From Pseudothermotoga sp. (GTDB taxonomy: Bacteria; Thermotogota; Thermotogae; Thermotogales; DSM-5069), in NCBI GenBank assembly GCA_025060105.1, contig JANXCS010000009.1, forward strand, positions 1-64,000: 64,000 nt of DNA, given 5' to 3'. The number at the start of each line of letters is the position of its first letter. The first letter of the stretch is position 1. A program made the position numbers and the translations under genes. Positions 10,399 through 39,429 of the stretch are shown here, piece by piece. The notes beneath the pieces are model-generated. The model was not told the origin of the DNA. It did no database searches and saw only the letters and a list, made by a program, of their open reading frames with translations.

Positions 10399-12225
10399 AT
10401 GATTCCTCCAGTGAAGAAGTTTGAGGCTATTTCTGGCAAATTCAAGTTGGCTTTTGGGAAAATCTTTACACACAGAGGCTCTTTTAAAATTGCAAAGTTG
10501 CTGTGCGAAGAACTTTCAAAATTTGGCTTAGATTTTTCCATCGTTGCTCATTCCAACAGCGGTTCAAAGATCGAGTTGTTAGAAGACAGAAACGTAGTTC
10601 ACCATGAACAAGGCTATAGAATCATCGTGCGAACTGAACGCGTCAGTATAGTCGCTGGCTCTGATCGAGGCTTGTTCTATGCAATACAGACTTTCAAACA
10701 ACTTTTGAGGGAACATGGATTCGAAATTCCCTGTTTATTCATTGAAGATGAGCCAGATTTTGAAAACAGGGGGTTCATGCTCGATATCAGCCGAGACAGG
10801 GTACCGAAACTGGAGACTTTGAAAAAACTCGTGGACTTACTCTGTGAATTGAAGTTCAATCAGCTTCAGCTCTATATGGAACACACTTTTGCTTACGAAA
10901 AACATGAAAAAGTCTGGAAAGATTATTCACCTCTGACGCATGGGGAAGTGATGGAACTCGATGAATACTGTAGAGAAAGGTTCATAGAACTCGTTCCAAA
11001 TCAGAATTGCTTCGGACATCTGGAAAAATGGCTTGCTCATGAAGATTACAAACACCTCGCTGAATGTCCAGATGGTTTTATTTTTCCTTGGGGAACTGCG
11101 TCTGGACCTTTTTCGTTGTCACCAGCTGTGCCGGATTCTTTGAAATTCGTTGAAGAACTTTTGGATGAACTTCTACCCCATTTCTCGAGTTCCAAAGTGA
11201 ACGTCGGTGCGGATGAAACCTTCGATCTTGGCCTTGGTCGTTCTAAGGAGCTCTGTGAGAAGTTTGGAAAAGGTAGAGTATACTTGAATTTCCTTCTGAG
11301 TTTGTACAAAATAGCTAGAAAACACGGTAGAACGATGATGTTCTGGGGTGACATCATAAAGAACCACCCAGAGCTTGTGGCGGAGCTACCGAAAGACATC
11401 GTCGCACTGATATGGGGTTATGAAGAAGCTCATCCTTACTGGGAAGAGTGTGCGTTGTTTGCTGGTAGCGGTGTGCCGTTCTACGTTTGCCCGGGCACAT
11501 CGAGTTGGAATTCGTTCGTCGGTAGAATCGATAACGCGTTGAAGAACATCGAAAACGCCATTCAAAATGGTAAGAAACATGGTGCCATTGGATTCTTGCT
11601 CACCGACTGGGGGGATAATGGCCATCCACAACATCTTCCTATTTCAATTGTTCCGATTGCACACGCAGCCTCTCTCGGTTGGAACGGCTCAGTAGAATTG
11701 TCCCCGGAAAAACTTTTGGAACAAACAGATGTGCATATTTTTAAGTCGAACGTGGCTTTATCAAGAAAACTGTATGTTCTTGGAAATCTCTACAAAAAAG
11801 TGAGCGTTCAAATTCCCAACGCTTCGATGTATTTTTTGACGATGATGCTTCCTGAAAGGTTTCTTGAGTCGATCAAAGCGATGAGCGAGGAGGACATCAA
11901 AAAGATGAGAGAGAATATCGAACAAGTCGAAGTTATGATTCAACAGCTTCGATCCATCCGTGATAAGACTGACCTTGAATCATGGATCGATCAGATCATC
12001 AACAATGCCGAAATGTTGAGACTATCGATGGAGTGGATAGTGTTGATGAACGAACACAAAGATATTGAAAAGATCCCACGTGAACGTTGGGGATCGTTCG
12101 AGGAAGAGTTCGAACACATGTTGAAAGACTATGAAAAACTGTGGCTCGAGTTGAACAAACCAGGTGGATTGAAACAGAGTGCAGAAAAGTTGGCACGTGT
12201 ACTCAATTTGAGAACTCGAAACTGA
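10399..12225 (+). CDS. Glycoside hydrolase family 20 (beta-N-acetylhexosaminidase-like)
   Basis: 608 residues. An N-terminal GH20b-like domain (about 1-115, ending GLFYAIQTFKQLL) precedes the catalytic barrel, which opens with FENRGFMLDISRDRVP and contains the Asp-Glu pair in VNVGADETFDLG, the expected acid/base for substrate-assisted cleavage of N-acetylhexosaminides. FLLTDWGDNGH lies near the barrel end; the last 170 residues are helical. No signal peptide is seen, so the enzyme is probably cytoplasmic and acts on imported oligosaccharides. The start is ATG 10399 with GAGGGGGT upstream; the longer reading from 10372 is rejected. The gene fits the nearby amino-sugar operon: it would release GlcNAc or GalNAc. 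Confidence 0.87.
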   Translation: MIPPVKKFEAISGKFKLAFGKIFTHRGSFKIAKLLCEELSKFGLDFSIVAHSNSGSKIELLEDRNVVHHEQGYRIIVRTERVSIVAGSDRGLFYAIQTFKQLLREHGFEIPCLFIEDEPDFENRGFMLDISRDRVPKLETLKKLVDLLCELKFNQLQLYMEHTFAYEKHEKVWKDYSPLTHGEVMELDEYCRERFIELVPNQNCFGHLEKWLAHEDYKHLAECPDGFIFPWGTASGPFSLSPAVPDSLKFVEELLDELLPHFSSSKVNVGADETFDLGLGRSKELCEKFGKGRVYLNFLLSLYKIARKHGRTMMFWGDIIKNHPELVAELPKDIVALIWGYEEAHPYWEECALFAGSGVPFYVCPGTSSWNSFVGRIDNALKNIENAIQNGKKHGAIGFLLTDWGDNGHPQHLPISIVPIAHAASLGWNGSVELSPEKLLEQTDVHIFKSNVALSRKLYVLGNLYKKVSVQIPNASMYFLTMMLPERFLESIKAMSEEDIKKMRENIEQVEVMIQQLRSIRDKTDLESWIDQIINNAEMLRLSMEWIVLMNEHKDIEKIPRERWGSFEEEFEHMLKDYEKLWLELNKPGGLKQSAEKLARVLNLRTRN

Positions 12226-12292
12226 AGATGTGTGTTTCGTTGGATTTTGAGAACACAATCATCTTGTTTCAACTTTCGCTGGAGGTGAACTT
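12226..12292. other. Gap before pullulanase
   Basis: 67 bases with the ribosome site GGAGGTGA just before ATG 12293. No terminator or clear promoter recognised. Confidence 0.4.
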
Positions 12293-14821
12293 ATGAAACG
12301 ATTCTTTCTAATGTCGCTGATGATTTTGAGCTTTGTCGTTTTTTCATCGACGAAAATCGTGGTTCACTATCATCGGTTCGATGGCAATTATGATGGTTGG
12401 AACCTTTGGATATGGCCCGTCGAACCTATATCTCGGGAAGGATCCGCTTATGAATTTGACGAGACGGATGATTTTGGCATGAAGGTAACGATAACTCTTC
12501 CTTGGGATTTAAACAAGGTCGGTATAATCGTTAGGTTGAGACAATGGGAAGAAAAAGATGTGGCCAAAGATAGGTTCATAGATATAGAAAACGGTTTTGC
12601 GGAGGTGTGGATATTGCAAGGTGTCGAAGAAATATTCAGAACGAAACCAGATACGAGTCCGAGGATAATGTTCGCTCGATTGATCGACTTTTCCACGATC
12701 GAAGCTTACGCAACGAATCCTTTCGATACATCGGGTAAGACTGACAGAGTGAGGGTTGAAATCGATGGCAAAGCTGTGGATGTAGCGAAAGTTGAGAAGT
12801 CTGATCCTACGGATATTTCTCGTACAAGACATTTCAAAGTGATACTGTCAAAACCACTCGATGAGGAAGACCTTCACAGAGACATTTTTTTGTACGTTGA
12901 AGGCTTTAAAGAATCTCGAGTTTTTCCCGTTGAAGTTCTCGATCAACTTTATTACGACGGTCCTCTAGGTTTCTTTTACACACCCAACCATACAGAATTT
13001 TATGTTTGGTCACCGGTGAGTCGCTCTGTCGAACTGCTCCTTTACAGTGACGCCAAACAGAATGAACCGACACGTACTCTGCGCATGGAAAGAAAAGAAA
13101 AAGGTGTCTGGTATGTGAAAGTTGATGGAGATTTGCAGGGTTGGTTCTACAAGTATCGTTACCACAGTTATGGTCAGATCAGAGAAGCCGTCGATCCATA
13201 CGCGAAGGCCCTTTCTTTGAAGGGTAAACTCGGTGCGATCGTGGATATGAAACGGTTGAATCCCGAAGGATGGGAGAAAGACAGTTTTGTTCGACTCGAT
13301 TCTTACGTGGATGCTATCATCTACGAGATCCATATCGCCGATATGACCGGTTCTGTGAACAGTGGGGTGAAGAACCGTTGTTCGTACATTGGTATGAGCG
13401 AGGAGGGTACAAAAGGTCCAAGCGGTGTTACGACCGGTTTGGATCACATAAAGGAACTGGGTGTGACACACGTCCACATACTTCCCATACTCGATTTCCA
13501 CACAGGTGATGAACAAGACAGAGATTTCGAGAAACATTACAATTGGGGATACGACCCTTACCACTACATGGTGCCAGAAGGTTGTTACAGTCTGAACCCA
13601 AAAGATCCAACGGCGAGGATATACGAAGTGAAAAAGATGATCCAAACCTTCCACAAAAACAACATAGGTGTTATACTGGACGTAGTTTTTCCACACACTT
13701 ACGGCGTGGGGGCGCTCTCTGTTCTCGATCAAGCGGTACCTTATTACTATTACAGGATCACTAAGACGGGTCAGTACATAGATGAAACTGGTTGTGGTAA
13801 CACCACGAACAGTGAAAGGCTCATGATGAGGAGATACATCATCGATACACTAGTTCACTGGGTGGAAGAATACCACGTGGACGGCTTCAGATTCGATCAG
13901 ATGGGATTGATAGACAGAGAAACGATGATTTTGGTCGAAAGAACCTTGAGGAAGATCAATCCGAGCGTGATCATATATGGAGAACCTTGGGGAGGATGGG
14001 GTGCAAAAGTGAGGTTCGCCAAATCGCAGTTGCTCGATCTTAGGGTAGCTGTTTTCAACGATAGTTTCAGAGATGCGCTCAGAGGATCCGTGTTCGATGC
14101 GAAAGCGAAAGGCTTTCTGATGGGAGCTTTGGCCAAGGAAAATTTGGTCAAAAGGGGGATTGTGGGCAGTATCAATTACGATAACAGATTGATCGTCGAC
14201 TTCGCAACGAGCCCAGAACAGACGATAAACTACGTTGAGTGCCACGATAATCACACGCTGTGGGACAAGAACGTGCTCGCTGCGAAAGCCGACAAGCGCG
14301 AGTGGAGCGAAGATGAGCTCAAATCTGCTCAAAAACTGGCTGCGGCCATCCTTTTGACATCACAAGGTGTTCCTTTTTTACACGCCGGTCAAGATTTCTG
14401 CAGAAGTAAAAACTTCAACGACAATTCTTACAATGCACCGCTTTCATTGAATGCGTTAGACTACGAGAGAAAAGCTCAGTTCCTCGATGTTTTCGAGTAC
14501 CACAAAGGCTTGATCAAGCTCAGAAAGTTTCATCCTGCATTCAGAATGAGATCGGCTCAGGAGATTAAGAAACATCTGCATTTCCTTGACTCACCGAGGA
14601 GAACTGTAGCCTTTTTGATCAAAGACCATGCCAACAATGATTCTTGGAGAGAAATTCTGGTGATTTACAACGGTGATTTGACCCAGAAGGAATTCACACT
14701 GCCTGAAGGAGAATGGAACGTCGTCGTCGATAAAGACAGAGCAGGAACCGATGTTCTTTACACACTGAGCGGCACGATCAAGGTTTCTCCAATCTGTGCC
14801 ATGGTGATGTACAGAAACTGA
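12293..14821 (+). CDS. pulA: Type I pullulanase (GH13), secreted
   Basis: 842 residues, close to the known Thermotoga pullulanase length. A signal peptide at 1-19 is followed by a starch-binding CBM41/PUD-type domain ([19 protein letters not shown]), a CBM48-like domain near 230-320 ([18 protein letters not shown]), the YNWGYDP pullulanase motif, and the GH13 catalytic residues: Asp535 in DGFRFDQMG, Glu564 in IYGEPWGG and Asp652 in ECHDNHTLW. It debranches alpha-1,6 links of pullulan or starch outside the membrane. The start has GGAGGTGA upstream. The next gene begins ten bases after its stop. Confidence 0.95.
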
Positions 14822-18597: not shown

Positions 18598-21059
18598 TCC
18601 TTCACAGCTCCTCTCGTTAAGCCACTGACGAGATATCGCTGCATGGACAAGAACAGTATGACCATCGGTAACATTCCAAGTAGAGCGGCCGCGGTGAACA
18701 ATCCCCACTCAGTTTCATAAGGTCCAACAGCGAAAGATTGCAGCCCCAGAGCGTAAGTATAATTTCTAACGTTTTGTAGCACGATCCTTGCAACGACGTA
18801 CTCATTGAAGGTACCGATGAAAACTAGCAAGAAGACCACAACGAGGATCGGTCTAGCGAGTGGCAACACTATCATGTAGAAACTTTGAAATTTTGTCGCC
18901 CCATCAACTATGGCAGCCTCTTCGAGTGAAGCAGGTATGAGATCGTAGAAACCTTTTATGAGATAAACGTTGTACGCGATGTTCGTAAGGTAAGCCAAAG
19001 CGAGTCCTCCTATGGTGTCGATACCAAGGAGGGGTATGTACTTTCCAAGGAAATTGAGCAAGTTGTATATCGCGATCATGAAGATCACGCCAGGAAACAT
19101 CTGAATGAGCAGAAAGCTGAGTATGCCGTACCTTCTGCCTACGAACCTCATCCTGCTGAATGGATAAGCTGCCGTGGCGCAGACGAAGGTAGTTATGAGA
19201 GCAACGATCACCGAAACGATTATGGAGTTCAGCACCCATCGTCCAAAGTAGTGTTTCATTTTCTCTTTCCATATTTGATCTATCCTGAACAAACGCTTGT
19301 CTATATCACGATAAAACTTTTCCATCTCCGAAAAAGGACAAATCTTTATTAAAGTTCCTACCCTTCTGGAAACGACTGAAAGGTCCGCTCGAACCTTGTT
19401 GACGAAATCCAGTTTCACCAGATCGAGCAACCTTGTGAGATGCTCTGAATTAACAAAAACACCACTCTGAGATAAGACTAAGAGCTTATCGTAAATTTTT
19501 TCAAAGTCATTCAACGTTCGATCGAACTCTTTCAACGTTTGATCGTAATTTCTAGAGTAATTCTCGAAACGCAAGACGAACGTTCTGTACTCCTCGATCC
19601 ATCTCAGATCATCAATGGCCTTCCGCACACTTTGCTTGACTCTGTCATCAGGTTCATAAGAATTGGCGAAATTTCTGAGCCAAGTCAGAACGGCCGAATA
19701 CCTTTGAAGATCGACTCTCGATAGAGATTTGATCGCTTCGACGGTGGAAATCCTCACCCTCAAGTCATTGCGAAAGAGATAAAGTTGTAACCATGTTCGC
19801 TCTTCCTTCAACTTCGTCTCGAGAGAGGCTTTCTCTTGCTGCAATTCATTCAACCGTTGATTCAGCTGCGCTAGTTCGGTTTTCTTCTCGTTCAACGTTC
19901 TGTTCAGCTCGGCCAATTTCGAGATGTCGTCTTGATAACGTTCGAAGAGTGATTGAAGATCATCGCATATTCGTTCAAGTTTTGGCTTGATCTCTAAATA
20001 AGTTTTCACCATATCACTGTAAGCTTTCAAGGCTCTGTATTGCTCGTCAACCTCTGCAAGATGGGTAAGCTTTGTGGCCAAATCCACAACGATACTCCGA
20101 AGCTCTGAAAGATCTTCAAAATTTTCCATCGATGACGCCATATCCTTCAACCTGAGACTTAGAGTTTCTGCACTCTGCAGAAAAATAGCATCATCAATGG
20201 GAAGAACACTCACCATTGAGGTTTGAACTAAGGAATCCTTCATCTTGACTAATGCAGACACTGCATCAGTTACAGAACGTACCTCACTGAGAACATCTTT
20301 TTTCAACAAAAGTTGTGTTTCGATGACGGACCTTTCCAAAGGTTGTGAAATTTTCATAATATTTCCTATTTCACCATTGAGCGAGGAAATCTGCGAAGAG
20401 ATTGTTTTCAACTCTTCCAACGAAATTCCACCCAATTTTTCATAGGTCGATCTCAACTGCTCGAGTGCGAGCAAATAAGATTCTTCACTCAGAACATCGA
20501 AATTCATCATCTCTTTTACCACTGGGCGGAGAGATTTTTCCAATTCTGAATTGAACCTTTCTTTGGCTAACGCTTCATAGAGTACGAAAGCCATCTCGTT
20601 TTGATCGATCTTCAGCTCGTTCAAAACTCGTTCAACATCCATTTCAACTTGGCGCAGATCATTCGAAACACTCGTCTTCACTGAATCTGATTTTGCACCA
20701 AGGAGCTTCACTATCTCATCATAAGAAGCCCTCGCAGATTCGTTCAACCTGTTCGATTCGTTTATGTATCTTCTCAACTTTTTCAGCAGTTCATTCGCTT
20801 TTTTCTGAACCTGCTCAAAGCTCATTCTGTCGTAAGGTTTCACCCGAGCAACGAGATTTTGGAGTTCTTTGATGAGTATTGGCACATTCTGCTCCGGCAA
20901 TAAGAGGTCTATGTAATTTTGAAATGTGAGTCTGCTGGAGAAGAGATCCGTCGAGAACGCGGCTTCATCTCTTCTCAGAGAAGTCATCACTACCCAAACG
21001 GTTGGAAAGAGGATGACTACGATCAAGAAAATCAATATCAGATGTACGTGAAATCTCAT
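18594..21059 (-). CDS. MalG-type permease with a ~550-residue extracytoplasmic coiled-coil insertion
   Basis: 821 residues, nearly three times the normal MalG length. TM1 lies at about 5-27. Residues about 50-600 are a hydrophilic insertion dense in Leu, Glu, Lys and Asp heptads (for example NEKKTELAQLNQRLNELQQE). The canonical remaining helices follow from about 605. The EAA loop LEEAAIVDGATKFQSFYMIVLP and the C-terminal QRYLVSGLTRGAVKE are intact. By the positive-inside rule the insertion should lie outside the cytoplasm, between TM1 and TM2. From memory, Thermotoga maritima has a similarly oversized permease in its corresponding locus. Start and stop overlap both neighbours by four bases. 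Confidence 0.92.
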   Translation of the reverse strand: MRFHVHLILIFLIVVILFPTVWVVMTSLRRDEAAFSTDLFSSRLTFQNYIDLLLPEQNVPILIKELQNLVARVKPYDRMSFEQVQKKANELLKKLRRYINESNRLNESARASYDEIVKLLGAKSDSVKTSVSNDLRQVEMDVERVLNELKIDQNEMAFVLYEALAKERFNSELEKSLRPVVKEMMNFDVLSEESYLLALEQLRSTYEKLGGISLEELKTISSQISSLNGEIGNIMKISQPLERSVIETQLLLKKDVLSEVRSVTDAVSALVKMKDSLVQTSMVSVLPIDDAIFLQSAETLSLRLKDMASSMENFEDLSELRSIVVDLATKLTHLAEVDEQYRALKAYSDMVKTYLEIKPKLERICDDLQSLFERYQDDISKLAELNRTLNEKKTELAQLNQRLNELQQEKASLETKLKEERTWLQLYLFRNDLRVRISTVEAIKSLSRVDLQRYSAVLTWLRNFANSYEPDDRVKQSVRKAIDDLRWIEEYRTFVLRFENYSRNYDQTLKEFDRTLNDFEKIYDKLLVLSQSGVFVNSEHLTRLLDLVKLDFVNKVRADLSVVSRRVGTLIKICPFSEMEKFYRDIDKRLFRIDQIWKEKMKHYFGRWVLNSIIVSVIVALITTFVCATAAYPFSRMRFVGRRYGILSFLLIQMFPGVIFMIAIYNLLNFLGKYIPLLGIDTIGGLALAYLTNIAYNVYLIKGFYDLIPASLEEAAIVDGATKFQSFYMIVLPLARPILVVVFLLVFIGTFNEYVVARIVLQNVRNYTYALGLQSFAVGPYETEWGLFTAAALLGMLPMVILFLSMQRYLVSGLTRGAVKE

Positions 21060-29935: not shown

Positions 29936-30610
29936 ATGGTGAAGAAACTGCATCCAATTCTCAAGGCATTCGTACCATTGGTGAAAGCTTTGGCGGAGAC
30001 GTTGGGGCCAGATTGTGAAGTGGTCTTACACGATGTTTCCGATCCAGAACATTCCGTGGTGGCCATAGAAAATGGACACATCACGGGTAGAAACGTTGGT
30101 TCACCCCTAACTGATTTTGGATTGTACCTGCTCAGATCACCGAGGTTCAGAGATGTGGATTATGTGGCTAACTATCTCACTAGGACGAACGATGGCAGGA
30201 AACTTCGCTCCACCACAGTTTTCATCAGAGATGAATTCAACACGACGATAGGTTTTTTGTGCATCAACTACGATACGACCAAAGCAACCGCAGTGAAAGA
30301 ATTCATAGAACAATTTTTGAAGCTTCAGAATCTAGAAGAGATAGCTGGGACGAAAGAAGAAAAGTTTGCAAGTAAAGTCGACGAACTCTTGGCAGAGGCC
30401 ATGCAGGAAATCAAGAGTTTGACAGGAAAACCCCTGAGGTTTGCGAGCAGGGAAGAGAAACTAGCTGTCATCAAAAAACTCGACGAGAAAGGTTTTTTCT
30501 TGCTGAAAGGCGCCGTCGAGATGCTCGCACGAGAACTTGGAAATTCGAAATTCACAGTGTATGCGTACCTGAGGGAAGCAAGAAGAAAAAATGATTCGAT
30601 AATGATCTGA
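29936..30610 (+). CDS. YheO/DauR-like transcriptional regulator (PAS + HTH)
   Basis: 224 residues. Residues about 8-120 match a YheO-type PAS domain ([20 protein letters not shown], then IGFLCINYD); residues about 165-220 match the HTH_22 type ([25 protein letters not shown]). Relatives include DauR, which controls D-arginine catabolism, so sensing of a D- or basic amino acid is a reasonable hypothesis given the racemase and aminomutase genes downstream. It is the first gene of the plus arm and probably autoregulated through the palindrome 29871-29891. Confidence 0.85.
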
Positions 30611-30623
30611 GGAGGTGTACACG

Positions 30624-31010
30624 ATGAGGATCGTTCAGACAGATGCAGCTCCTAAGGCTATAGGACCGTATTCTCAAGCGATTGAAGCAAACGGTTTCGT
30701 CTTCGTTTCAGGTCAGATACCGCTCGACCCACAAACTGGTCAGCTGGTCGATGGGGATATAAAAAAACAGACTAAAAGAGTTTTTGAAAATATCAAAGCT
30801 ATTTTGGCCGCAGCCGGATGTCAACTGAGTGACGTTGTGAAGGTCACTGTGTTCACCAAAGATATCTCCAATTTTTCAGCGATCAATGAAGTTTACAGTG
30901 AATATTTTCAGAACCACAAACCTGCGAGGTCTTTCGTCGAAGTTTCAGCTCTACCAAGGGATGCACAAGTTGAAATTGAAGTGATCGCTATCAAGGAGGT
31001 AAAGGCATGA
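30624..31010 (+). CDS. ridA: RidA/YjgF-family enamine/imine deaminase
   Basis: 128 residues, the standard family length. [25 protein letters not shown], the [24 protein letters not shown]-terminal block (read in pieces) and the conserved Arg in PARS are all present. RidA hydrolyses reactive 2-aminoacrylate and related enamines or imines released by PLP enzymes. The start is ATG 30624 with AGGAGGTG upstream; GTG 30615 is within that site. Placed directly before a PLP enzyme and an FAD oxidase-like enzyme, it most likely clears their imine product. Confidence 0.93.
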
Positions 31011-31444
31011 AAGAACCATACTCTGCTGGCATGTTGAAATTCGATCCCTACGCAAAAAAACAACCAGTCGTTGGAAAAGTTGTGGCGGTTCTGAGGGGAA
31101 AACTCGAAAACAGAGGTCTCAATCTGATAGATCCTCGTTCGAGAGCCTTGAGAATTGGAGAAATCCACGAGTTGCTCGTCACCGATGAAGAGGAGGCCGC
31201 ACCTGGCAGAACTGTGAATCGGGTTGCCTACATCGCTTTCATAGAGATTGTCCAGCCTGGAGTGATCGTTTTCCAAGATGTGATCAAGCTCAGTAGTGGC
31301 GAGAAAATCGGCACCCTGGTAGGTTTTGACGAAACACACATGCCCAACCACGAAAACATCGTCATACGTTCTGAGAAATTGGTGAGCGGCGAAGAACTCG
31401 GTTTGGAACTTCAAGACGTGATCGTCTTTGAGAGGGAGGGATGA
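31007..31444 (+). CDS. DUF6917-like conserved protein
   Basis: 145 residues with a compact beta-rich look ([57 protein letters not shown]). No signal or membrane segment. I recall similar proteins under the DUF6917 label beside PLP enzymes, but the family name is from memory. It overlaps ridA by four bases (ATGA) and ends overlapping or abutting the PLP gene, so it probably works with that enzyme. Invariant-looking His and Asn residues in [10 protein letters not shown] are candidates for an active or metal site. Function unknown. Confidence 0.7.
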
Positions 31445-31446
31445 GT

Positions 31447-32901
31447 ATGTTCAAGTACAGATACCATCTGTACAGACATTTGAAGCAATCTTTGCCAAAG
31501 ATCTTGGAAGATGCAAGAAAAGCTGCTGATGAGATCGGGATCCCACAAGAATGGAGAGGGAAGTTCGGTCTAACAGGTGCGATATCTGGTTGTCATGGTC
31601 TCATCACCAAAGAAGTGGACGAGGCTATCAGTGCGGTGGCCCGTGAGGTGATACCGAACAAGGTCTTCGCTGATGAGATCAGAGATATAGTCAAAGATCA
31701 CTATGGCGATGATTACGATGCACTCTTAGTGAATACATGCGAAGCGGCACTCTGGTTGAGCTTCGATGTGTTGGTTTCACCACCTTTCACTGGTAGGGGT
31801 GATAAGTACAGAACTAGATACATCATCCCCTACGAGAGGCACCTCCACCATCACGGCGGATATGGTAGACCTTTTCCACCTCACTACAAGGACGTTTTTG
31901 CAGACAGAGGTTGCACCGCCGGAGAACTGGGATTCTATGGAAAGAGACTTGAGAACGTCGATGTGATCGTAGTCCCGATGGTCGGAGCTCGTTACACGGT
32001 CCACGGGATAAAGTATCATCCTGCTGTCCTCTTGAGTGGTGTCAAGGCCGAAGAGACCTTCAAGAAAATTGAACAAATCGCAGAACGACACATCGATACA
32101 CTGGCAGGTTTTTCCTCACTCGGTTACGATACCGTTGGCTACGGTTACGGTGAGAAAGACAAAGATGGTGTGCCGATACTCCAGAAAAAGCTCGGAGAAC
32201 TTGCGAGTGAATTGAACGTGCCATACATAGTGGACAACGCGTGGGGTGTACCGTTCATCGGAACGGATCCAAGAAAGATAGGAGCTTGGGTGATGACCTA
32301 CAGTATGGACAAAGCTGCAGGTGCACCGACGTGCGGTTTGATCATTGGAAAAGAAGACGTGATGGTCTCCCTCAGGAGAGCCATGGGCACTCACGGTGAC
32401 AGGTATGGAACTTGGTCCAGCTATGGGAAAGCAGCCTACGTGACGTTCGATCCAGGTAAAGAAGCACTCGCAGGTGCCATCGCCGCACTGAAAGCTTTGA
32501 AGAACAAAGCTGATAAGTTCAAAAAGAACGTGGACAAACTCTATGAAATCACGTTGGAAGAATTCTCCAAAATGGATTCACGCATCAAGCATATTTTCAA
32601 GATCTCCAAGAGTTACAACTCCGGTGCTGTGGAGATCAATTACGATGATTGCTGGGAGAAAGGTGTACCGTTCCCGATATTCACCATCGAAGATATGTAC
32701 GCGGGTACCAACATACTCCAGATCGGAACCGACGCGATGGGTATTGTACAAACAATTGCATATGATGGAAACATATTTGTTTCACTAGGTCTCGGCACAA
32801 CTGATGAAAATGGAGATATCATTGAAGACAAAGTGAGACTCGCTGTTAGAGGGTTAGTTAGGTTGATAGAAATCGTAGCAAAATATACAAATGTTCTCTG
32901 A
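31447..32901 (+). CDS. PLP-dependent fold-type I enzyme, substrate unknown
   Basis: 484 residues. YIVDNAWGVPF supplies the Asp that contacts the PLP pyridine nitrogen, and YSMDKAAGAPTCGLIIG contains the expected Schiff-base Lys (about residue 289). HHHGGYGRPFPPHY (about 137-150) is an unusual His-rich insertion. The fold is like SepCysS, SelA and class V aminotransferases; whether it is a transaminase, lyase or thiolase-like enzyme cannot be told. ATG 31447 is chosen with GGGAGGG six bases upstream, though ATG 31441 (overlapping the previous stop) is possible. It sits between DUF6917 and an FAD enzyme in the amino-acid operon. Confidence 0.78.
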   Translation: MFKYRYHLYRHLKQSLPKILEDARKAADEIGIPQEWRGKFGLTGAISGCHGLITKEVDEAISAVAREVIPNKVFADEIRDIVKDHYGDDYDALLVNTCEAALWLSFDVLVSPPFTGRGDKYRTRYIIPYERHLHHHGGYGRPFPPHYKDVFADRGCTAGELGFYGKRLENVDVIVVPMVGARYTVHGIKYHPAVLLSGVKAEETFKKIEQIAERHIDTLAGFSSLGYDTVGYGYGEKDKDGVPILQKKLGELASELNVPYIVDNAWGVPFIGTDPRKIGAWVMTYSMDKAAGAPTCGLIIGKEDVMVSLRRAMGTHGDRYGTWSSYGKAAYVTFDPGKEALAGAIAALKALKNKADKFKKNVDKLYEITLEEFSKMDSRIKHIFKISKSYNSGAVEINYDDCWEKGVPFPIFTIEDMYAGTNILQIGTDAMGIVQTIAYDGNIFVSLGLGTTDENGDIIEDKVRLAVRGLVRLIEIVAKYTNVL

Positions 32902-32917
32902 CGAGAGGGTGGGGGTC

Positions 32918-34210
32918 ATGGTGCGGGCACCGAAGGTTGTCGTCGTCGGAGGAGGATGGGGTGGTTGTGCGGCCGCAGCGGCCGCACGTAAGGCTGGCGC
33001 CGAGGTTATTCTGCTCGAAAGGGCAGACATGCTTTTAGGAACAGGGCTCGTTGGTGGTATATTCAGAAACAACGGTAGATTCACCGCGGCAGAGGAAATG
33101 CTCGAGATGGGTGCGGATATTTTTTCAGTGATGGACAAATGCACCACGCACACCAACATTGAATTTCCCGGCCACAAACATGTAAGTTTGTACAACGTTT
33201 ACAGAATGGAACCAGCCATTCGAGAATATCTCTCCAACCTTGGCGTTCGAATATTGACTAACGCACGTGTCATAGACGTGGCAAGAGAAGGCAAAAAAAT
33301 CAGCTGTGTCGTTGTCGAGGATCATGAACCGATACATGGAGACGTGTTCATCGATGCGACAGGTACTTCCGCTGTTCCTGCCAACTGCACAAAATACGGT
33401 AACGGTTGCGCTATGTGTATACTCAGATGCCACAGCTTTGGTCCTAGGGTGAGCATTACAACTAAAGTTGGGGTCGAAGAGTGGGTCGGCAAAAAATCCG
33501 ACGGCACTGTTGGAGCCATGAGTGGATCATGCAAGTTGTGTAAAGATTCTATAGCCCCAGACATAGTGAAAGAACTCGAAGAAAAAGGTTGTGTACTCAT
33601 ACCAGTACCACCAGAAGCCAGAGAAGAAGAAAAATTGCTCAGTATGAAGGCTTGTCAGCAATACGCTTCAGAAGAGTTCCTTGAGAATTTGGTTCTGCTC
33701 GACACCGGTCCTGTGAAACTGATGACCCCATTCTTTCCACTCGAACGACTCAGGAAAGTGCCTGGCATGGAGAGGGCTCGATACGAAGATCCGATCGCTG
33801 GTGGAAAGGGCAATTCAATGAGATATTTTGGATTTGCCAACTGCACGCCCGAACTTCAAGCGATAGGTCCTGTGGACAACCTGTTTTGTGCTGGTGAAAA
33901 AGCTGGAGCCATGGTGGGTCACACGGAAGCGATCGTCACTGGAACCTTGGCTGGTCACAACGCCGTGAGGAAGGCGCTGGGAGAAAAACTTTTGAGATAC
34001 CCCGATGGACTCGCCGTCGGTGACTTTGTGAACCACGTGATCGCAGAAATGAAGAGAGAGGAGGGCCGTCAGTACAAATACACCTTCTCAGGTTCCATCT
34101 ATTTCAAAAGGATGGTTCAGAAGGGACTCTATACTACGAACGTCGAAGAGATCAGAAAAAGGGTTAACAATGCTGGTTTGAAGAACATCTTCAACACCAA
34201 ACTAGTTTGA
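32918..34210 (+). CDS. FAD-dependent oxidoreductase with Cys-rich middle
   Basis: 430 residues. The N-terminal FAD fold KVVVVGGGWGGCAAAAAARK is clear, as is a C-terminal FAD motif LFCAGEKAGAMVGHTEAIVTGTLAGHNAV (read in pieces), reminiscent of GidA/TrmFO-type flavoproteins. The middle has paired cysteines in NGCAMCILRC and GSCKLCKDS plus FANC, which could hold an Fe-S cluster or act as redox disulfides. The start is ATG 32918 after GAGGGTGGGGG; an ATG at 32891 lies inside the previous gene. By position it probably oxidises an amino-acid intermediate whose imine RidA would hydrolyse (inference). Confidence 0.8.
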   Translation: MVRAPKVVVVGGGWGGCAAAAAARKAGAEVILLERADMLLGTGLVGGIFRNNGRFTAAEEMLEMGADIFSVMDKCTTHTNIEFPGHKHVSLYNVYRMEPAIREYLSNLGVRILTNARVIDVAREGKKISCVVVEDHEPIHGDVFIDATGTSAVPANCTKYGNGCAMCILRCHSFGPRVSITTKVGVEEWVGKKSDGTVGAMSGSCKLCKDSIAPDIVKELEEKGCVLIPVPPEAREEEKLLSMKACQQYASEEFLENLVLLDTGPVKLMTPFFPLERLRKVPGMERARYEDPIAGGKGNSMRYFGFANCTPELQAIGPVDNLFCAGEKAGAMVGHTEAIVTGTLAGHNAVRKALGEKLLRYPDGLAVGDFVNHVIAEMKREEGRQYKYTFSGSIYFKRMVQKGLYTTNVEEIRKRVNNAGLKNIFNTKLV

Positions 34211-34225: not shown

Positions 34226-35599
34226 GTGGTGGAGTTGACGTTGGCTCACTGGTTGTACCTCATCTTCATGGTCGCGGTCGTCGTCACCATGTTCCTGCGA
34301 AAAGACACACCACTGATCTGTCTGCTCGGCTCGTTGCTCATCGGCTGGGCTGTGACAAAATCTTTCATTGGCGCCATTCAGTCCGTGTTCAACGCCATCG
34401 TCGTGGCCGGTGTCGAGCTACTCGGTATCGTCGTGGTCATCTCACTCATGGTGGCTTTGTCCAAGCAGATGGAAAAGAGTGGAGCTGCAGCAGTGCTCAT
34501 AAGAACTTTGGGTAAACCTATCAAGGGTCCGAAGTCTGCTTTCTGGTTTGTCGGCATCATCACAGCTATCCTTGCACTCTTCATCTGGCCAACACCGTCT
34601 GTTGCGCTCATCGGTAGCTTGCTCGTCCCTGTTGCTGTCAGTGCTGGTCTTTCTCCGGTCGGAGCTGGTGTGGCGATCGCTATGTTCGCCTACGGTGTGG
34701 CCCTCACCACCGACTTCGTCATCCAAGGTGCACCGACTCTGACGGCGAAAGCGGCTGGCATAGGTGTGGGTGAAGTCATGGTCGCGATGGTGCCCCTCAT
34801 CATAGCTTGGGCAGTCGTTGCGATTCCATTGAGTTATTTTTGGACGATGAGAGCTAACAGAAACTACGATCCCCGCAGAGACATCGAACTGTTCGGTGAG
34901 AGCGTCATGAAGAGTAAAAGAGAGGAATTCAGCACATTCGCAAAAGCTGAGGCTGCAATAGTCGCACTCGCTTTCCTGATCGATATAGTCCTGATGCTCG
35001 CTTTGAAATTGCGTGGAGGAGATGCCACAGCATTGCTCGGTGGAACTGCAGCAATGCTTTTGTTCGTGTTCACTCTCGCTCAGTACAAGAAAGAAGGATT
35101 CGAAATCGGAGCTGACTTCCTTAGGGAGGGCTTCATGTTCGGAGTGAAGATTTTCGCGCCAGTTTTCGTTATCGCGGCTATGTTCTATATGGGTAGCGGT
35201 GCAGCCAAACAGATATTCGGTGATGCTGGAAGACCTCTGTTGTTCGATCTTGCGAACGCACTCGCTCAGAGAGTGCCTTTGAACAAGTTCGCAGTTGGCC
35301 CGATGCAAGCAGTCATTGGTGCTATCACAGGTTTGGATGGATCGGGCTTTTCCGGTTTACCGCTGATGGGAACACTCGCGGGTGGTTTGGCGCCAGTCGC
35401 CAAGGTGAAGACATCCGTCATGGCCGCTCTCGGTCAGCTCACCGCAGTGAACTGTGGAGGGGGAACGATCGTTCCATGGGCACTCATCGCTGTCGCTGCT
35501 GTGTGCAAGACTAAGCCGGAGGAGATCGCCAGAAAGAACTTCATGCCGGTCATCCTTGGCTACGTTGCCGCTACGATCGTTGCGATCATCCTCATGTGA
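34226..35599 (+). CDS. Membrane transporter, ion-transporter-superfamily type (GntP/NhaC-like)
   Basis: About 457 residues with 11-12 hydrophobic segments. A central cytoplasmic hinge lies at about 215-250 (RANRNYDPRRDIELFGES). The two halves contain TPSVALIGSLLVPVAVSAGLSP and TGLDGSGFSGLPLMGTLAGGL, re-entrant-loop-like segments typical of this superfamily. Being last in an amino-acid catabolic operon, it likely imports the substrate amino acid or exchanges substrate for product. Two GTG codons (34226, 34229) are possible starts after GAGGGGG. A terminator follows directly. Confidence 0.8.
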   Translation: MVELTLAHWLYLIFMVAVVVTMFLRKDTPLICLLGSLLIGWAVTKSFIGAIQSVFNAIVVAGVELLGIVVVISLMVALSKQMEKSGAAAVLIRTLGKPIKGPKSAFWFVGIITAILALFIWPTPSVALIGSLLVPVAVSAGLSPVGAGVAIAMFAYGVALTTDFVIQGAPTLTAKAAGIGVGEVMVAMVPLIIAWAVVAIPLSYFWTMRANRNYDPRRDIELFGESVMKSKREEFSTFAKAEAAIVALAFLIDIVLMLALKLRGGDATALLGGTAAMLLFVFTLAQYKKEGFEIGADFLREGFMFGVKIFAPVFVIAAMFYMGSGAAKQIFGDAGRPLLFDLANALAQRVPLNKFAVGPMQAVIGAITGLDGSGFSGLPLMGTLAGGLAPVAKVKTSVMAALGQLTAVNCGGGTIVPWALIAVAAVCKTKPEEIARKNFMPVILGYVAATIVAIILM

Positions 35600-35606
35600 A
35601 CGATGT

Positions 35607-35629
35607 GGGGCGCGTCAAGCGCCCCTTTT
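35607..35629 (+). terminator. Intrinsic terminator after the transporter gene
   Basis: GGGGCGC (35607-35613), loop GTCAA, GCGCCCC (35619-35625), TTTT. It begins eight bases after the transporter stop. No new promoter is obvious in the 26 bases before dapF, so read-through probably feeds the downstream genes. Confidence 0.9.
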
Positions 35630-35655
35630 CATCCTCTCCGAAGGGGTGTGGCCAA

Positions 35656-36492
35656 TTGAAAATAAAATTTTTCAAAATGAACGGTGCGGGAAACGATTTC
35701 ATAGTCATCGACAACAGAGAGAACATCCTTGCAGATTTTGATATCAATCACTTCGTTAAGATGGTTTGCCGTAGAGGCAAATCCATAGGTGCAGATGGAC
35801 TCATGCTACTTGAAAATTCGAACACAGTCGATTTCAAAATGAGGTACTTCAACTCTGATGGTTCTGAAGGAGAGATGTGTGGAAACGGTGCGCGCTGCAT
35901 AGCGCGGTTCGCGAACATGATTGGTGTGGCAGGTAAGGCGATGAAGTTTGAAACGATCTCTGGAGTGCACGAGGCACTCTTAGTGGATGATGAGGTGCGC
36001 ATCATGTTTCCAGATCTGAGTTTGGACAACTTCAAACTGTTTCAAAAACACGATTTTGGTTTCGGACCAGTTGAGTATCATTTCGCCACAGTTGGAGTGC
36101 CACACACGATGATCTTCAGAGAGGACGTCGAATCGATGGACTATGGCACATTACTTGAATGGGGAAGAAAGATCAGATACACTTTGAACGTTTTCCCAAA
36201 AGGTACGAACGTGAATTTCATCAAAATCGTTGATGGGTCGAACATAACAGTCAGAACGTATGAGCGTGGTGTGGAAAACGAAACACTCGCTTGTGGTACT
36301 GGTTCGGTCGCGTCTTCGATCGTTTGCTTTCTGATCGGTCGTGTCGAACCGCCTGTGCAGGTGAAAGTGAGGGGTGGAAGACTGAAAGTCGGTTTCGAAT
36401 TGATCGATGAACGGTTCGTCAATGTCTATCTTCAAGGCGATGCCCGTACTGTGGCCGAAGGCTACATCCTTCCAGATGCTTGGAAAGAATGA
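35656..36492 (+). CDS. DapF-like PLP-independent amino acid epimerase/racemase
   Basis: 278 residues, normal DapF length. Both catalytic cysteines are present: GEMCGNGARC (N-terminal half) and TLACGTGSVAS (C-terminal half); FKMNGAGNDFIVID starts the fold. The start is TTG 35656 with AAGGGGTG seven bases upstream. Classical DapF converts LL- to meso-diaminopimelate, but no other lysine-biosynthesis gene is nearby; instead the gene is coupled to an aminomutase-like protein. Aminomutases of the ornithine/lysine class act on D-amino acids, so a racemase for lysine, ornithine or a relative is a strong alternative. A cell-wall role (Thermotoga peptidoglycan contains D-lysine) is a second alternative. 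Confidence 0.85.
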   Translation: MKIKFFKMNGAGNDFIVIDNRENILADFDINHFVKMVCRRGKSIGADGLMLLENSNTVDFKMRYFNSDGSEGEMCGNGARCIARFANMIGVAGKAMKFETISGVHEALLVDDEVRIMFPDLSLDNFKLFQKHDFGFGPVEYHFATVGVPHTMIFREDVESMDYGTLLEWGRKIRYTLNVFPKGTNVNFIKIVDGSNITVRTYERGVENETLACGTGSVASSIVCFLIGRVEPPVQVKVRGGRLKVGFELIDERFVNVYLQGDARTVAEGYILPDAWKE

Positions 36493-36518: not shown

Positions 36519-36746
36519 ATGATAGACAAAATCATCGACGCACTCGACGTTGAAACAACACTGCTCGCCAAGAGTGAAGAGGAAGCGAAGAGTGTGGCTA
36601 TACAGTACTTCAAATCTCTGGGCTTCAACGATGTCGATGTGGTGTTCATCGAGCATAACGGCTTTGCGGCGCGAGTTCGATTGCGCGCTTACATCTTCAG
36701 ACCTGGCGACAAATATGTGTGGGTCTTTGGAGGCGATGGGAAATGA
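36519..36746 (+). CDS. Small protein coupled to the aminomutase (possible small subunit)
   Basis: 75 residues, one alpha/beta unit (SEEEAKSVAIQYFKSLGF, then VDVVFIEHNGFAARVRLRAY). The start is ATG 36519, six bases after GTGAGGTG; earlier ATG 36489 overlaps the dapF stop and lacks a site. Its stop overlaps the mutase start (ATGA), implying 1:1 synthesis, so it may be an accessory subunit. It does not look like the usual OraS small subunit; a segment of that type is found inside the next protein instead. Function unassigned. Confidence 0.7.
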   Translation: MIDKIIDALDVETTLLAKSEEEAKSVAIQYFKSLGFNDVDVVFIEHNGFAARVRLRAYIFRPGDKYVWVFGGDGK

Positions 36747-38521
36747 AATTTGTACTTTTTCCCCTCGACCCTGTCCACGACGTGGCTTTGAAGATGTTGA
36801 ATAGAGAACTTGTGAAGAGAAAACACCAAGTGATTTTACTACCCCCGGATACCAAAATGGAAGAAGTGATCGAGTTATGCCAAAGGGAGATGCCAGATTT
36901 CATCATGGTGAGTCGAACGGTTGGTTATGGCGCTGCAGAACTGCTTGCAAGGTTCATAGATATGTTGGATGCGGCAGGTCTGAGAGATAAATGCAAAGTG
37001 GTGGTGGGGGGCAAAGCGATCACGAAGGAGTTGGCGGCGGAATTGGGTTACGATGCTGGATTTGGTGAAAGAACGAGCTGGGAAGAAGTAATCGCTTATG
37101 TCGAAGGAAGGCAAATGGAGAAAGAAAAACTCAAAGTCAAAAAGAATAAGCGCGACATCACTCAAGGTTACACCTATCGTGTGCACGAACCAACCTTCAA
37201 ACAACTGCTCGATAAAATCACAGACCAAATTTTGGATTGGGTTAAAGACAAGACTAGTCCAGCTATCGAAAGGGTGAAGATCAGAGAAAGAATGCTCGAA
37301 GGTGAGGATTTGATCGAAGAATACCTCAAGTTTTGTGATGAAACGGTTGTCTCTTACTTCAAAAAGAACCTTTTACCAAAGAAAGTGAGGTTCATAACCC
37401 GAGAAGAGAGTAAAAAATTCGATCAGTTGATAAAAAGCCTGAAGTTAGACGACAGAATCCTCCGCCACACGCTCGACAAACCTCTCGTGTTCGTTCAGTA
37501 CGGAACAGGTTGTCCTTTCATGGATGCGATGCACATCAAAGTGAGTGAAGCTTGGGGGGCCGATGGTGTATTGCATTTTGATCCTTCTTGGGGTGCGAGG
37601 TGTGAAGGATTACTCGAAGGTTTACTGGCGCACGAAGAGGATGGTTCGATAATAACTTTAGAGAATTTGAAGCTCATCAAATCGTCTCTCGATGTTTCAA
37701 CTCTCTGGTGCGTCAGGGCGCACAGAGGATTGAACACGCCGGAAACGATCTTGCTCGCAGCTCGTGCCGGAGCAGACCTGACGAAGATAAACATGGTCTA
37801 TGGTTCGCTCAACGGCGGTACCGATCCAGAAAGACTCACTGTGGATGGTGTGTACGCTCTAAAGCTTGCAGCGAAATACAATTTGCCATTCGATATCCCC
37901 ACCAATGAAGAACTCGGTGGAGTTCCTGCACCCAAAGCTTTCGCTGGTATGCTCGTGGTTGCACACCTTGGGGTGAAGCTGAACGCTAAACCTATCTTGA
38001 AGCCACTGTTTTGCTATTCACCTGATGTGATGATCAACGATTACATGAAAGACAATTACATCGATTACAACGTAGCAAAGGTGATCGCACTGCGGCAGAT
38101 CATGGACGCTCCAATATGGCCTGGTGAACCCATTGGATTCATGACTCACACAGAAGACAGGATCCAATCGGCTATGACGACGGCTCTTCACGCCGCACTC
38201 GCAAGTTCTCTGAGACTCGACGCGATAACCATCGCTTCTACGGATGAGGCTTATGCTCGTGGTGCCATCACCGTGAGTGCTCGTATCGATACACTCAGAG
38301 CCATAGCAGAAGCCTTCAGGTTCTTTGGACAAGCGAAGATCGAACCGACGAAAAGGGCCGAAGAATATGCTCAGATGATAGTGAATGGTATCTACGAAAC
38401 TCTCGAGAAAGTTGCGAAAAGGGAAGATTTCGTGGCTTCTCTCTATGAAGGTCTGTTTGGAACGAGAGAGGAAGGTGCGAATCCAGGCAGGGCAGGTAGA
38501 GGAACGGTGAGAAAGTGTTGA
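36743..38521 (+). CDS. Cobalamin-dependent aminomutase-like protein with N-terminal B12 domain
   Basis: 592 residues. Residues 1-125 resemble the B12-binding Rossmann domain of lysine 5,6-/ornithine 4,5-aminomutase: DAAGLRDKCKVVVGGKAITK and AELGYDAGFGERTSWEEV match closely. Residues about 145-195 resemble an OraS-like segment (DWVKDKTSPAIERVKIRERM). Residues about 225-560 form a barrel with FVQYGTGCPFMDAMHIKVSE and DAITIASTDEAYARGAITVS. The order is reversed: in the known enzymes the B12 domain is C-terminal or a separate chain. The B12 motif DxHxxG reads DPVHDVA here, and the PLP-lysine position 11 residues after the His is Leu23, with Lys25/Lys27 nearby. It may be a new subfamily; the substrate is unknown. 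Confidence 0.8.
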   Translation: MKFVLFPLDPVHDVALKMLNRELVKRKHQVILLPPDTKMEEVIELCQREMPDFIMVSRTVGYGAAELLARFIDMLDAAGLRDKCKVVVGGKAITKELAAELGYDAGFGERTSWEEVIAYVEGRQMEKEKLKVKKNKRDITQGYTYRVHEPTFKQLLDKITDQILDWVKDKTSPAIERVKIRERMLEGEDLIEEYLKFCDETVVSYFKKNLLPKKVRFITREESKKFDQLIKSLKLDDRILRHTLDKPLVFVQYGTGCPFMDAMHIKVSEAWGADGVLHFDPSWGARCEGLLEGLLAHEEDGSIITLENLKLIKSSLDVSTLWCVRAHRGLNTPETILLAARAGADLTKINMVYGSLNGGTDPERLTVDGVYALKLAAKYNLPFDIPTNEELGGVPAPKAFAGMLVVAHLGVKLNAKPILKPLFCYSPDVMINDYMKDNYIDYNVAKVIALRQIMDAPIWPGEPIGFMTHTEDRIQSAMTTALHAALASSLRLDAITIASTDEAYARGAITVSARIDTLRAIAEAFRFFGQAKIEPTKRAEEYAQMIVNGIYETLEKVAKREDFVASLYEGLFGTREEGANPGRAGRGTVRKC

Positions 38522-39429
38522 TCCTCGGAGTACTCGGTACAGCAAAAAATACAGGTAAGACCACGACTACCAACGCTCTTTTGAAATGTCTGAGTGACAA
38601 ACCTTTGGCCATAACGAGCATAGGTTTCGATGGAGAGGATCTCGACCACATCACTGGTCTTCCAAAGCCGAAAGTTTTTGTGGAAGAAAGTACCGTTGTA
38701 GCCACCAGCGAAATGGCCGCGAAACATTCGACCGCCAAATTGCAATTACTCAAAAAACTAGAAATAACGACCGCTTTGGGCCCAGTTGGCATTTACAGAG
38801 TAAAACAACCTGGAACGGTCGTGCTCGTCGGACCACACAGCAGCAACGGGCTCCTCACCCTTGCAGAAACGCTGAGGAGTGAAAATATCGAAATCTTCTT
38901 GGTGGACGGTGCTATAAACAGGATCGTGCCGTTTCAACATGCGGACTTCGTGATACTTGCAGTGGGTGCTTCAAGGTCAACGAACATAGACTTTCTATTC
39001 CTAGAAACGAAAGTGATCATCAGAACCTTCGAATTACCGCTGGGAAGAGGGACTCGAAAGGTCCTAAAAGGTTTGATCAGCACCGAAAAACTCTCGATGT
39101 TTCGTGGTGAATCCATCTCAGTCGAATCTCCCATGCACCTTTTGCTCACCGAAGATTTTGCGAAACTTGAAAAACTTTTGCAAGAAATCGACATTGCTGT
39201 GATGAGAAAACCAAAATTGCTGTGTGTGACCATCAATCCATGCTACGCTGAAAGAAGAGCGGAAGGTTTCACACTCGCCCAGATTGATTTGAGTGAGCTT
39301 TCGAAGATGATCGAGCGTGAACTGAACATACCTTGTCTCGATGTCGTGAAGGAAGAAGAAAGACTGTGCCGAATCGTTGAAGAAGAGATCGGTAAAATGG
39401 GTACCTTGGAAGGAGGAATTTCTCCATGA
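38515..39429 (+). CDS. P-loop NTPase, possible mutase reactivase (KamB-like)
   Basis: 304 residues. The P-loop GTAKNTGKTTTTN at residues about 8-20 is followed by an SIGFDGED switch-like segment, VEESTVVATSEMA, VLVGPHSSNGLL and VDGAINRI. The N-terminal motif resembles KamB, a subunit of the lysine 5,6-aminomutase reactivase (recalled from memory). It overlaps the mutase gene by seven bases and has no KamC-like MutS partner nearby. A role in exchanging damaged cobalamin on the adjacent mutase is the simplest inference. The start is GTG 38515 or TTG 38518. Confidence 0.7.
   Translation: MLILGVLGTAKNTGKTTTTNALLKCLSDKPLAITSIGFDGEDLDHITGLPKPKVFVEESTVVATSEMAAKHSTAKLQLLKKLEITTALGPVGIYRVKQPGTVVLVGPHSSNGLLTLAETLRSENIEIFLVDGAINRIVPFQHADFVILAVGASRSTNIDFLFLETKVIIRTFELPLGRGTRKVLKGLISTEKLSMFRGESISVESPMHLLLTEDFAKLEKLLQEIDIAVMRKPKLLCVTINPCYAERRAEGFTLAQIDLSELSKMIERELNIPCLDVVKEEERLCRIVEEEIGKMGTLEGGISP

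Follow-up and report, generated by a model that had tools for sequence, protein, structure and literature searches.

A conserved family of probable B12-dependent mutases with reordered domains and a lost PLP site in Thermotogota and a second phylum

The gene at positions 36743-38521 (+ strand) of the window (the whole 64,000-nucleotide stretch of a Pseudothermotoga sp. contig analyzed here) encodes a 592-amino-acid protein of the B12-dependent mutase kind, a variant in which the domains are reordered and the PLP site is lost. Computational analysis shows that the PLP lysine and the PLP contacts are lost family-wide, while the glutamate that assists homolysis is kept. We consider it rather probable that these proteins are AdoCbl radical mutases or eliminases, with the KamDE/OraSE architecture distributed over two chains, which do not use PLP as the known aminomutases do, and whose substrate is likely anionic.

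PLP- and B12-dependent aminomutases are, to our knowledge, few in number. In ornithine aminomutase, release of PLP and motion of the B12 domain are coupled (PMC4256349), and a natural family that keeps the same scaffold and homolysis glutamate, without the PLP site, offers a direct test of that coupling. The family also hints at how B12 mutases that need PLP are related to those that do not, and points to a metabolic pathway carried by roughly one in ten of the genomes sampled from one phylum.

Domain order and distribution

The large chain (assigned from Pfam, AlphaFold2 and Foldseek results) begins with a B12-binding Rossmann domain (residues 1-126; 36743-37120, + strand), delimited by alignment and by invariance in 65 sequences. 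An earlier note on this DNA had proposed a permuted order with the B12 domain N-terminal, and the Pfam match to PF02310 at residues 11-112 (E 1.8e-10, exceeding the curated cut-off) bears this out. There follows a helical segment resembling OraS and the N-terminus of KamD (about residues 139-235; 37157-37447, + strand), where the match to OAM_alpha (OraS) is weak (residues 149-178, E 0.016, under cut-off), the structural model contains helices at residues 150-167, 173-185, 191-195, 200-208 and 220-232, and a joint alignment co-aligns the segment with KamD. The remainder is a TIM barrel (about residues 245-535; 37475-38347, + strand), which carries D280, R286, R325, H327, R328, K348, Y353 and E502.

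Structure prediction against OraE and KamD/KamE, proposed in the earlier note, was carried out with AlphaFold2 and Foldseek. The model, built from an alignment of 39 sequences with 127 invariant columns, has a pLDDT of 87.5 and a pTM of 0.82; its first-ranked match in the PDB is KamD of lysine 5,6-aminomutase (1xrs_A, E 2.8e-16, 526 columns), followed by OraE (E 3.1e-11) and GlmE (E 3.5e-10). The OraS-like segment is thus built in, as had been read from the sequence, but it is not novel by itself, because KamD has one too and aligns to the model over those 526 columns.

Overlooked in that first reading, which had the order and the segment right, was a separate open reading frame (ORF) directly upstream. 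The dimerisation domain that stands ahead of the B12 domain in KamE is missing from the 592-residue chain, and a 75-residue ORF (36519-36746, + strand), overlapping the mutase start (ATGA), encodes a detached dimerisation domain of the OAM/KamE type. PF16554 matches this ORF with E 0.0039 and matches 10 of 27 homologues (best 7.9e-5), and hhalign pairs it with the KamE N-terminus (92%, E 7e-7). The ORF is found at 29 of 31 larger mutase loci, L131 and L133 being the exceptions; L131, which has no recognisable dimerisation ORF upstream, is the lowest-scoring full-length member in a draw of 399 genomes from one phylum. A frameshift or assembly artefact splitting off the domain is ruled out, as dozens of genomes show the identical split. 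The gene order is dimerisation ORF, B12 domain, helical segment, barrel, a layout that resembles KamE placed ahead of KamD, cut past the dimerisation domain, with the B12 end joined to KamD.

Close homologues (76-86% identity) occur in eight Thermotogota genomes among 151 relative genomes searched, and a scan of GTDB contigs returned a 54% homologue in a metagenome-assembled genome named Candidatus Fermentithermobacillaceae. Within the class of that genome the mutase is present in 33 of 154 genomes, and within its phylum in 39 of the 399 genomes drawn evenly. A scan of 39 family members recovered the B12 domain in each of them. Residue conservation was assessed in 65 unique sequences, a broader sample of Thermotogota and the second phylum, in which the key residues of the 39-sequence alignment are also kept. 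Homologues in two phyla, together with this retention of key residues, indicate that the family is real and widespread, and not a damaged gene. Some genomes hold two copies of the mutase module (loci L141/L142 in genome G598, L143/L144 in G341). An 1101-residue frame at locus L069 was considered as a larger fusion and rejected, because its N-terminal half reads the upstream gene out of frame. No plasmid copies were found, and a comparison with viral structures gave no meaningful match. Our search of the literature available without subscription found no account of the family.

The B12 motif and the lost PLP site

The motif within the N-terminal B12 domain is PLDPVHDVALK, numbered D9-P10-V11-H12-D13-V14-A15, with His12 as putative ligand. 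The reading DPVHDVA in place of DxHxxG is accurate for this protein and largely holds for its relatives: D9, P10, H12 and K17 are invariant in the 65 unique homologues, all members have Pro in place of the Asp at -2 from the ligand His, and an invariant Asp stands at -3. The DPVH loop is thus particular to the family; the final Ala, although present here, is a minority variant (9 of 65, with Gly in the other 56). With Pro at -2, binding of B12 by the mutase would be expected from the remainder of the B12 domain.

Eleven residues past His12, where the PLP-holding residue is expected, the protein has Leu23, as previously noted, a residue shared by 61 of the 65 sequences, the other 4 having Phe. 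The suggestion that nearby Lys25 or Lys27 might substitute fails on conservation: 8 of the 65 sequences have Lys at position 25 and 31 have Glu there, and position 27 is Gly in 61. Both are ruled out as PLP lysines. Lys17 is unlikely, as it corresponds to the generic lysine of DxHxxGxK, also found in the genome's own DGHDRGAK-type B12 domain. An alignment of the family's B12 domain with that domain, the genome's own KamE and an OraE shows that the insert after helix 1, which bears the PLP lysine, is present in KamE (MKGFHGDYGLERY) and OraE (IKHGG) and absent from the family; the insert itself reads KGFHGDYGLERY in KamE and KHGG in OraE. In its short layout the family's domain resembles ordinary, PLP-free B12 domains. 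In OraE, the lysine within EVIDIKHG is K629, as deduced from the D627A primer printed in PMC4256349. The alignment indicates that the PLP lysine has been neither shifted nor substituted, and that the loop carrying it is deleted in the aligned members.

Two observations that the earlier note had named as contrary to its reading were sought. The canonical motif does not move into register, the PLP-lysine insert being absent. An additional B12 subunit does exist in the genome, a canonical KamE on contig C11 beside its own KamD, but it is not explanatory because the 592-residue protein has a B12 domain of its own.

The barrel has lost most of its PLP contacts as well. KamD holds PLP through R184, Q188, S189, Y236, S238, Y263, R268 and N299 (PMC3958899). 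When the family is aligned together with KamD and OraE by MAFFT, seven of these eight are replaced (R184 by D280, Q188 by G284, S189 by A285, Y236 by A326, S238 by R328, R268 by G358 and N299 by L391), and only Y263 is retained, as Y353. Strands 2-4 fall in the same register by MAFFT and by an independent hhalign comparison. Single-residue assignments in the barrel carry some risk, because it shares only about 18% of its residues with KamD, OraE and GlmE and the hhalign match to a combined KamD/OraE barrel profile is modest (78%, E 1.7e-5). Every one of the 64 sequences that extend over these positions has D280, R325, R328, K348, L391 and E502. The substrate and PLP contacts of OraE, mapped by anchoring on motifs since indels shift the numbering, have changed as well (E81 to Q252, Y160 to A326, H182 to K348, H225 to T387, R297 to G465 and Q299 to M467, with S162 changed too); among them, Y160, H182, H225, R297 and Q299 contact the carboxylate of the substrate.

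In alignments with real GlmE sequences, R325 falls on R149, the residue that binds the substrate carboxylate in glutamate mutase. GlmE R66 aligns with G254, and R100 lies near R286, out of register. The invariant E502 aligns with OraE E338 and GlmE E330, both of which assist homolysis of the Co-C bond (PMC4413051). A tree that placed the family with GlmE (support 0.99) was set aside, the identities being about 18%.

These data support the proposal of a distinct, conserved subfamily with a changed domain order and an altered cofactor site (65 homologues, a deleted loop and seven of eight contacts replaced). They also bear on the main rival explanation, that of a PLP- and AdoCbl-dependent aminomutase which binds PLP in the barrel, with K348, where strand 4 ends, forming the Schiff base, and R286, R325 and R328 making up a new site for the phosphate and the pyridine nitrogen. 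K348 is invariant and aligns with OraE active-site H182, the invariant Y353 corresponds to the tyrosine that stacks on PLP in KamD (Y263), R328 takes the place of KamD Ser238, a contact of the pyridine nitrogen, and a KamB homologue is retained. However, the contacts that are gone include all of the listed phosphate-holding side chains, and a lysine in the barrel is incompatible with the release of PLP from its lysine that frees the B12 domain (PMC4256349). We regard this rival as unlikely. Several points nevertheless count against the PLP-free mutase reading: the invariant arginines may form a new phosphate cup, so that PLP could bind differently; KamB has so far been named as the reactivase of a PLP-dependent enzyme; the resemblance to GlmE is weak by profile (E 0.034); and the -2 Asp of the B12 motif is Pro.

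Operon partners and a candidate reaction

Conservation of the operon was counted over the 31 larger mutase loci, which span two phyla. Immediately downstream, overlapping the mutase stop, lies a gene for a KamB-like P-loop aminomutase reactivase (38515-39429, + strand; NF052386, reactivase_KamB, E 8.6e-55, 186 bits, just below the 210-bit cut-off), whose homologues are present at 27 of the loci; a second KamB-like gene lies elsewhere in the genome. Equally frequent (27 of 31) is a fold-type-I PLP enzyme (31441-32901, + strand) that resembles SepCysS, SelA and SufS, identified from an AlphaFold2 model (pTM 0.88) with which Foldseek pairs SepCysS first (E 1.1e-13), then SelA and SufS. Lys291 within its YSMDK motif is invariant in alignment A3, its identity outside Thermotogota is 52-63%, and no Pfam or NCBIfam family matched it above cut-off. 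An FAD-dependent oxidoreductase of the GIDA/FAD_oxidored type (32891-34210, + strand; PF01134, E 9.8e-31; PF12831, E 1.2e-18) is present at 23 loci. A second, diverged FAD oxidoreductase lies near the operon at two loci (L138, 12385-13707; L140, 2680-4002), and at L138 a cysteine-rich ORF (11404-12381) adjoins this second copy.

Further upstream in the window, a DUF6917 protein (31007-31444, + strand; PF21891, E 1e-46) accompanies the mutase at 24 loci, and its steady partnership with the mutase in two phyla hints at a possible accessory role or a step of the pathway for it. A permease weakly similar to CitMHS (34226-35599, + strand; PF03600, E 1.4e-5, below cut-off) occurs at 13 loci; a putative RidA-family protein (30615-31010, + strand), so assigned from its own sequence, has RidA-like counterparts at 13. 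The remaining members are a YheO-type transcriptional regulator (29936-30610, + strand; PF08348, E 1.5e-44; PF13309, E 2.6e-20) and the diaminopimelate epimerase DapF (35596-36492, + strand; TIGR00652, 231.5 bits; 3 of 31 loci). DapF is encoded only once in the genome, both PF01678 matches being the two halves of this gene, and lies within the operon only in Thermotogota relatives, not in the second phylum; a role as dedicated racemase is therefore unlikely, and DapF is probably not a dedicated part of the operon. No riboswitch was detected at Rfam gathering thresholds between positions 20000 and 46000. As a whole, the operon looks like one that imports an amino or organic acid and breaks it down.

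The reading as a plain lysine or ornithine aminomutase with a mere rearrangement of its parts is already largely refuted and very improbable: KamD and OraE are the nearest folds, and a KamB-like partner and the dimerisation domain are present, but canonical KamD and KamE are already encoded on contig C11, the NCBIfam scores of the mutase lie far under the curated cut-offs (56.3 of 280 bits for NF052385, Lys_5_6_beta; 26 of 800 for OraE), all seven OraE residues listed above are changed, and no genes of lysine or ornithine fermentation routes were recognised in the operon. The reordered domains and the loss of nearly all PLP-holding residues suggest that the family probably performs a different chemistry on a different substrate than the lysine and ornithine aminomutases. 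A B12-binding protein lacking radical catalysis, such as a sensor or methyl-group carrier, is equally hard to credit, for although the B12 domain is weakly similar to corrinoid carrier proteins and has Pro for the Asp of DxHxxG, E502 is invariant, as are many polar residues of the barrel, the gene is regularly accompanied by that of the reactivase and by those of other metabolic enzymes, and Foldseek returns AdoCbl mutases.

PLP-free chemistry, as suggested earlier by analogy with glutamate mutase, remains the best-supported reading; the loss of the site fits it, and PLP independence is what we infer from that loss. The scaffold would be re-packed into two chains: the dimerisation subunit, which is small (36519-36746), and a long chain that opens with the B12 domain, in which His12 would hold AdoCbl base-off. 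Binding of the substrate in the barrel may free the B12 domain to move across the mouth of the barrel, at which E502 would help to break the Co-C bond; the resulting 5'-deoxyadenosyl radical would abstract a hydrogen from the substrate, and a radical rearrangement or elimination would follow. In place of the PLP cup, the barrel has conserved residues, Asp, Arg, His and Lys among them, of which R286, R325, R328 and K348 may grip an anionic acid, in principle as glutamate mutase does, and the KamB-like protein would reactivate the enzyme. AdoCbl chemistry, an anionic substrate and a catabolic use are all predicted on these grounds. The fullest statement is more tentative, with something near an even chance of being right: the family may consist of widespread PLP-free AdoCbl radical mutases on a PLP-aminomutase scaffold, which act on an acidic substrate gripped by arginines and serve, with the SepCysS/SelA-fold and FAD enzymes, a new catabolic pathway. 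If true, the family would connect the glutamate mutase group with the aminomutases that depend on PLP.

Comparison with known B12-dependent mutases

KamD/KamE (PDB 1xrs, 8t0v, 9q1a) shares with the mutase the helical segment and TIM barrel, the dimerisation domain and a KamB-like partner, and the B12 domain of KamE is about 26-29% identical to that of the mutase. Here, in contrast to KamDE, the B12 domain is N-terminal to the barrel, the dimerisation domain has its own gene, the PLP-lysine loop (KamE K144) is deleted and the barrel PLP contacts are replaced at seven of eight positions. OraS/OraE (PDB 3kow-3kp1) has the same set of OraS-like, barrel, dimerisation and B12 domains, with Glu338 equivalent to E502. 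In OraSE, however, the B12 domain is C-terminal and OraS is a separate subunit, whereas the B12 domain of the mutase comprises residues 1-126, and the equivalents of Lys629, H182, H225, R297 and Q299 are unconserved in the mutase. The mutase therefore lacks defining features of KamDE and of OraSE, though it is built like both.

The arginine claw of glutamate mutase consists of R66, R100 and R149. GlmE/GlmS (PDB 1cb7, 6h9e) is a PLP-free relative in fold, in which R149 and E330 align with R325 and E502, and the loop of the mutase B12 domain has a length like that of PLP-free B12 domains. Unlike the mutase, GlmE has R66 and K326, whose equivalents are absent here, R100 corresponds only approximately to R286, and GlmS is a separate subunit.
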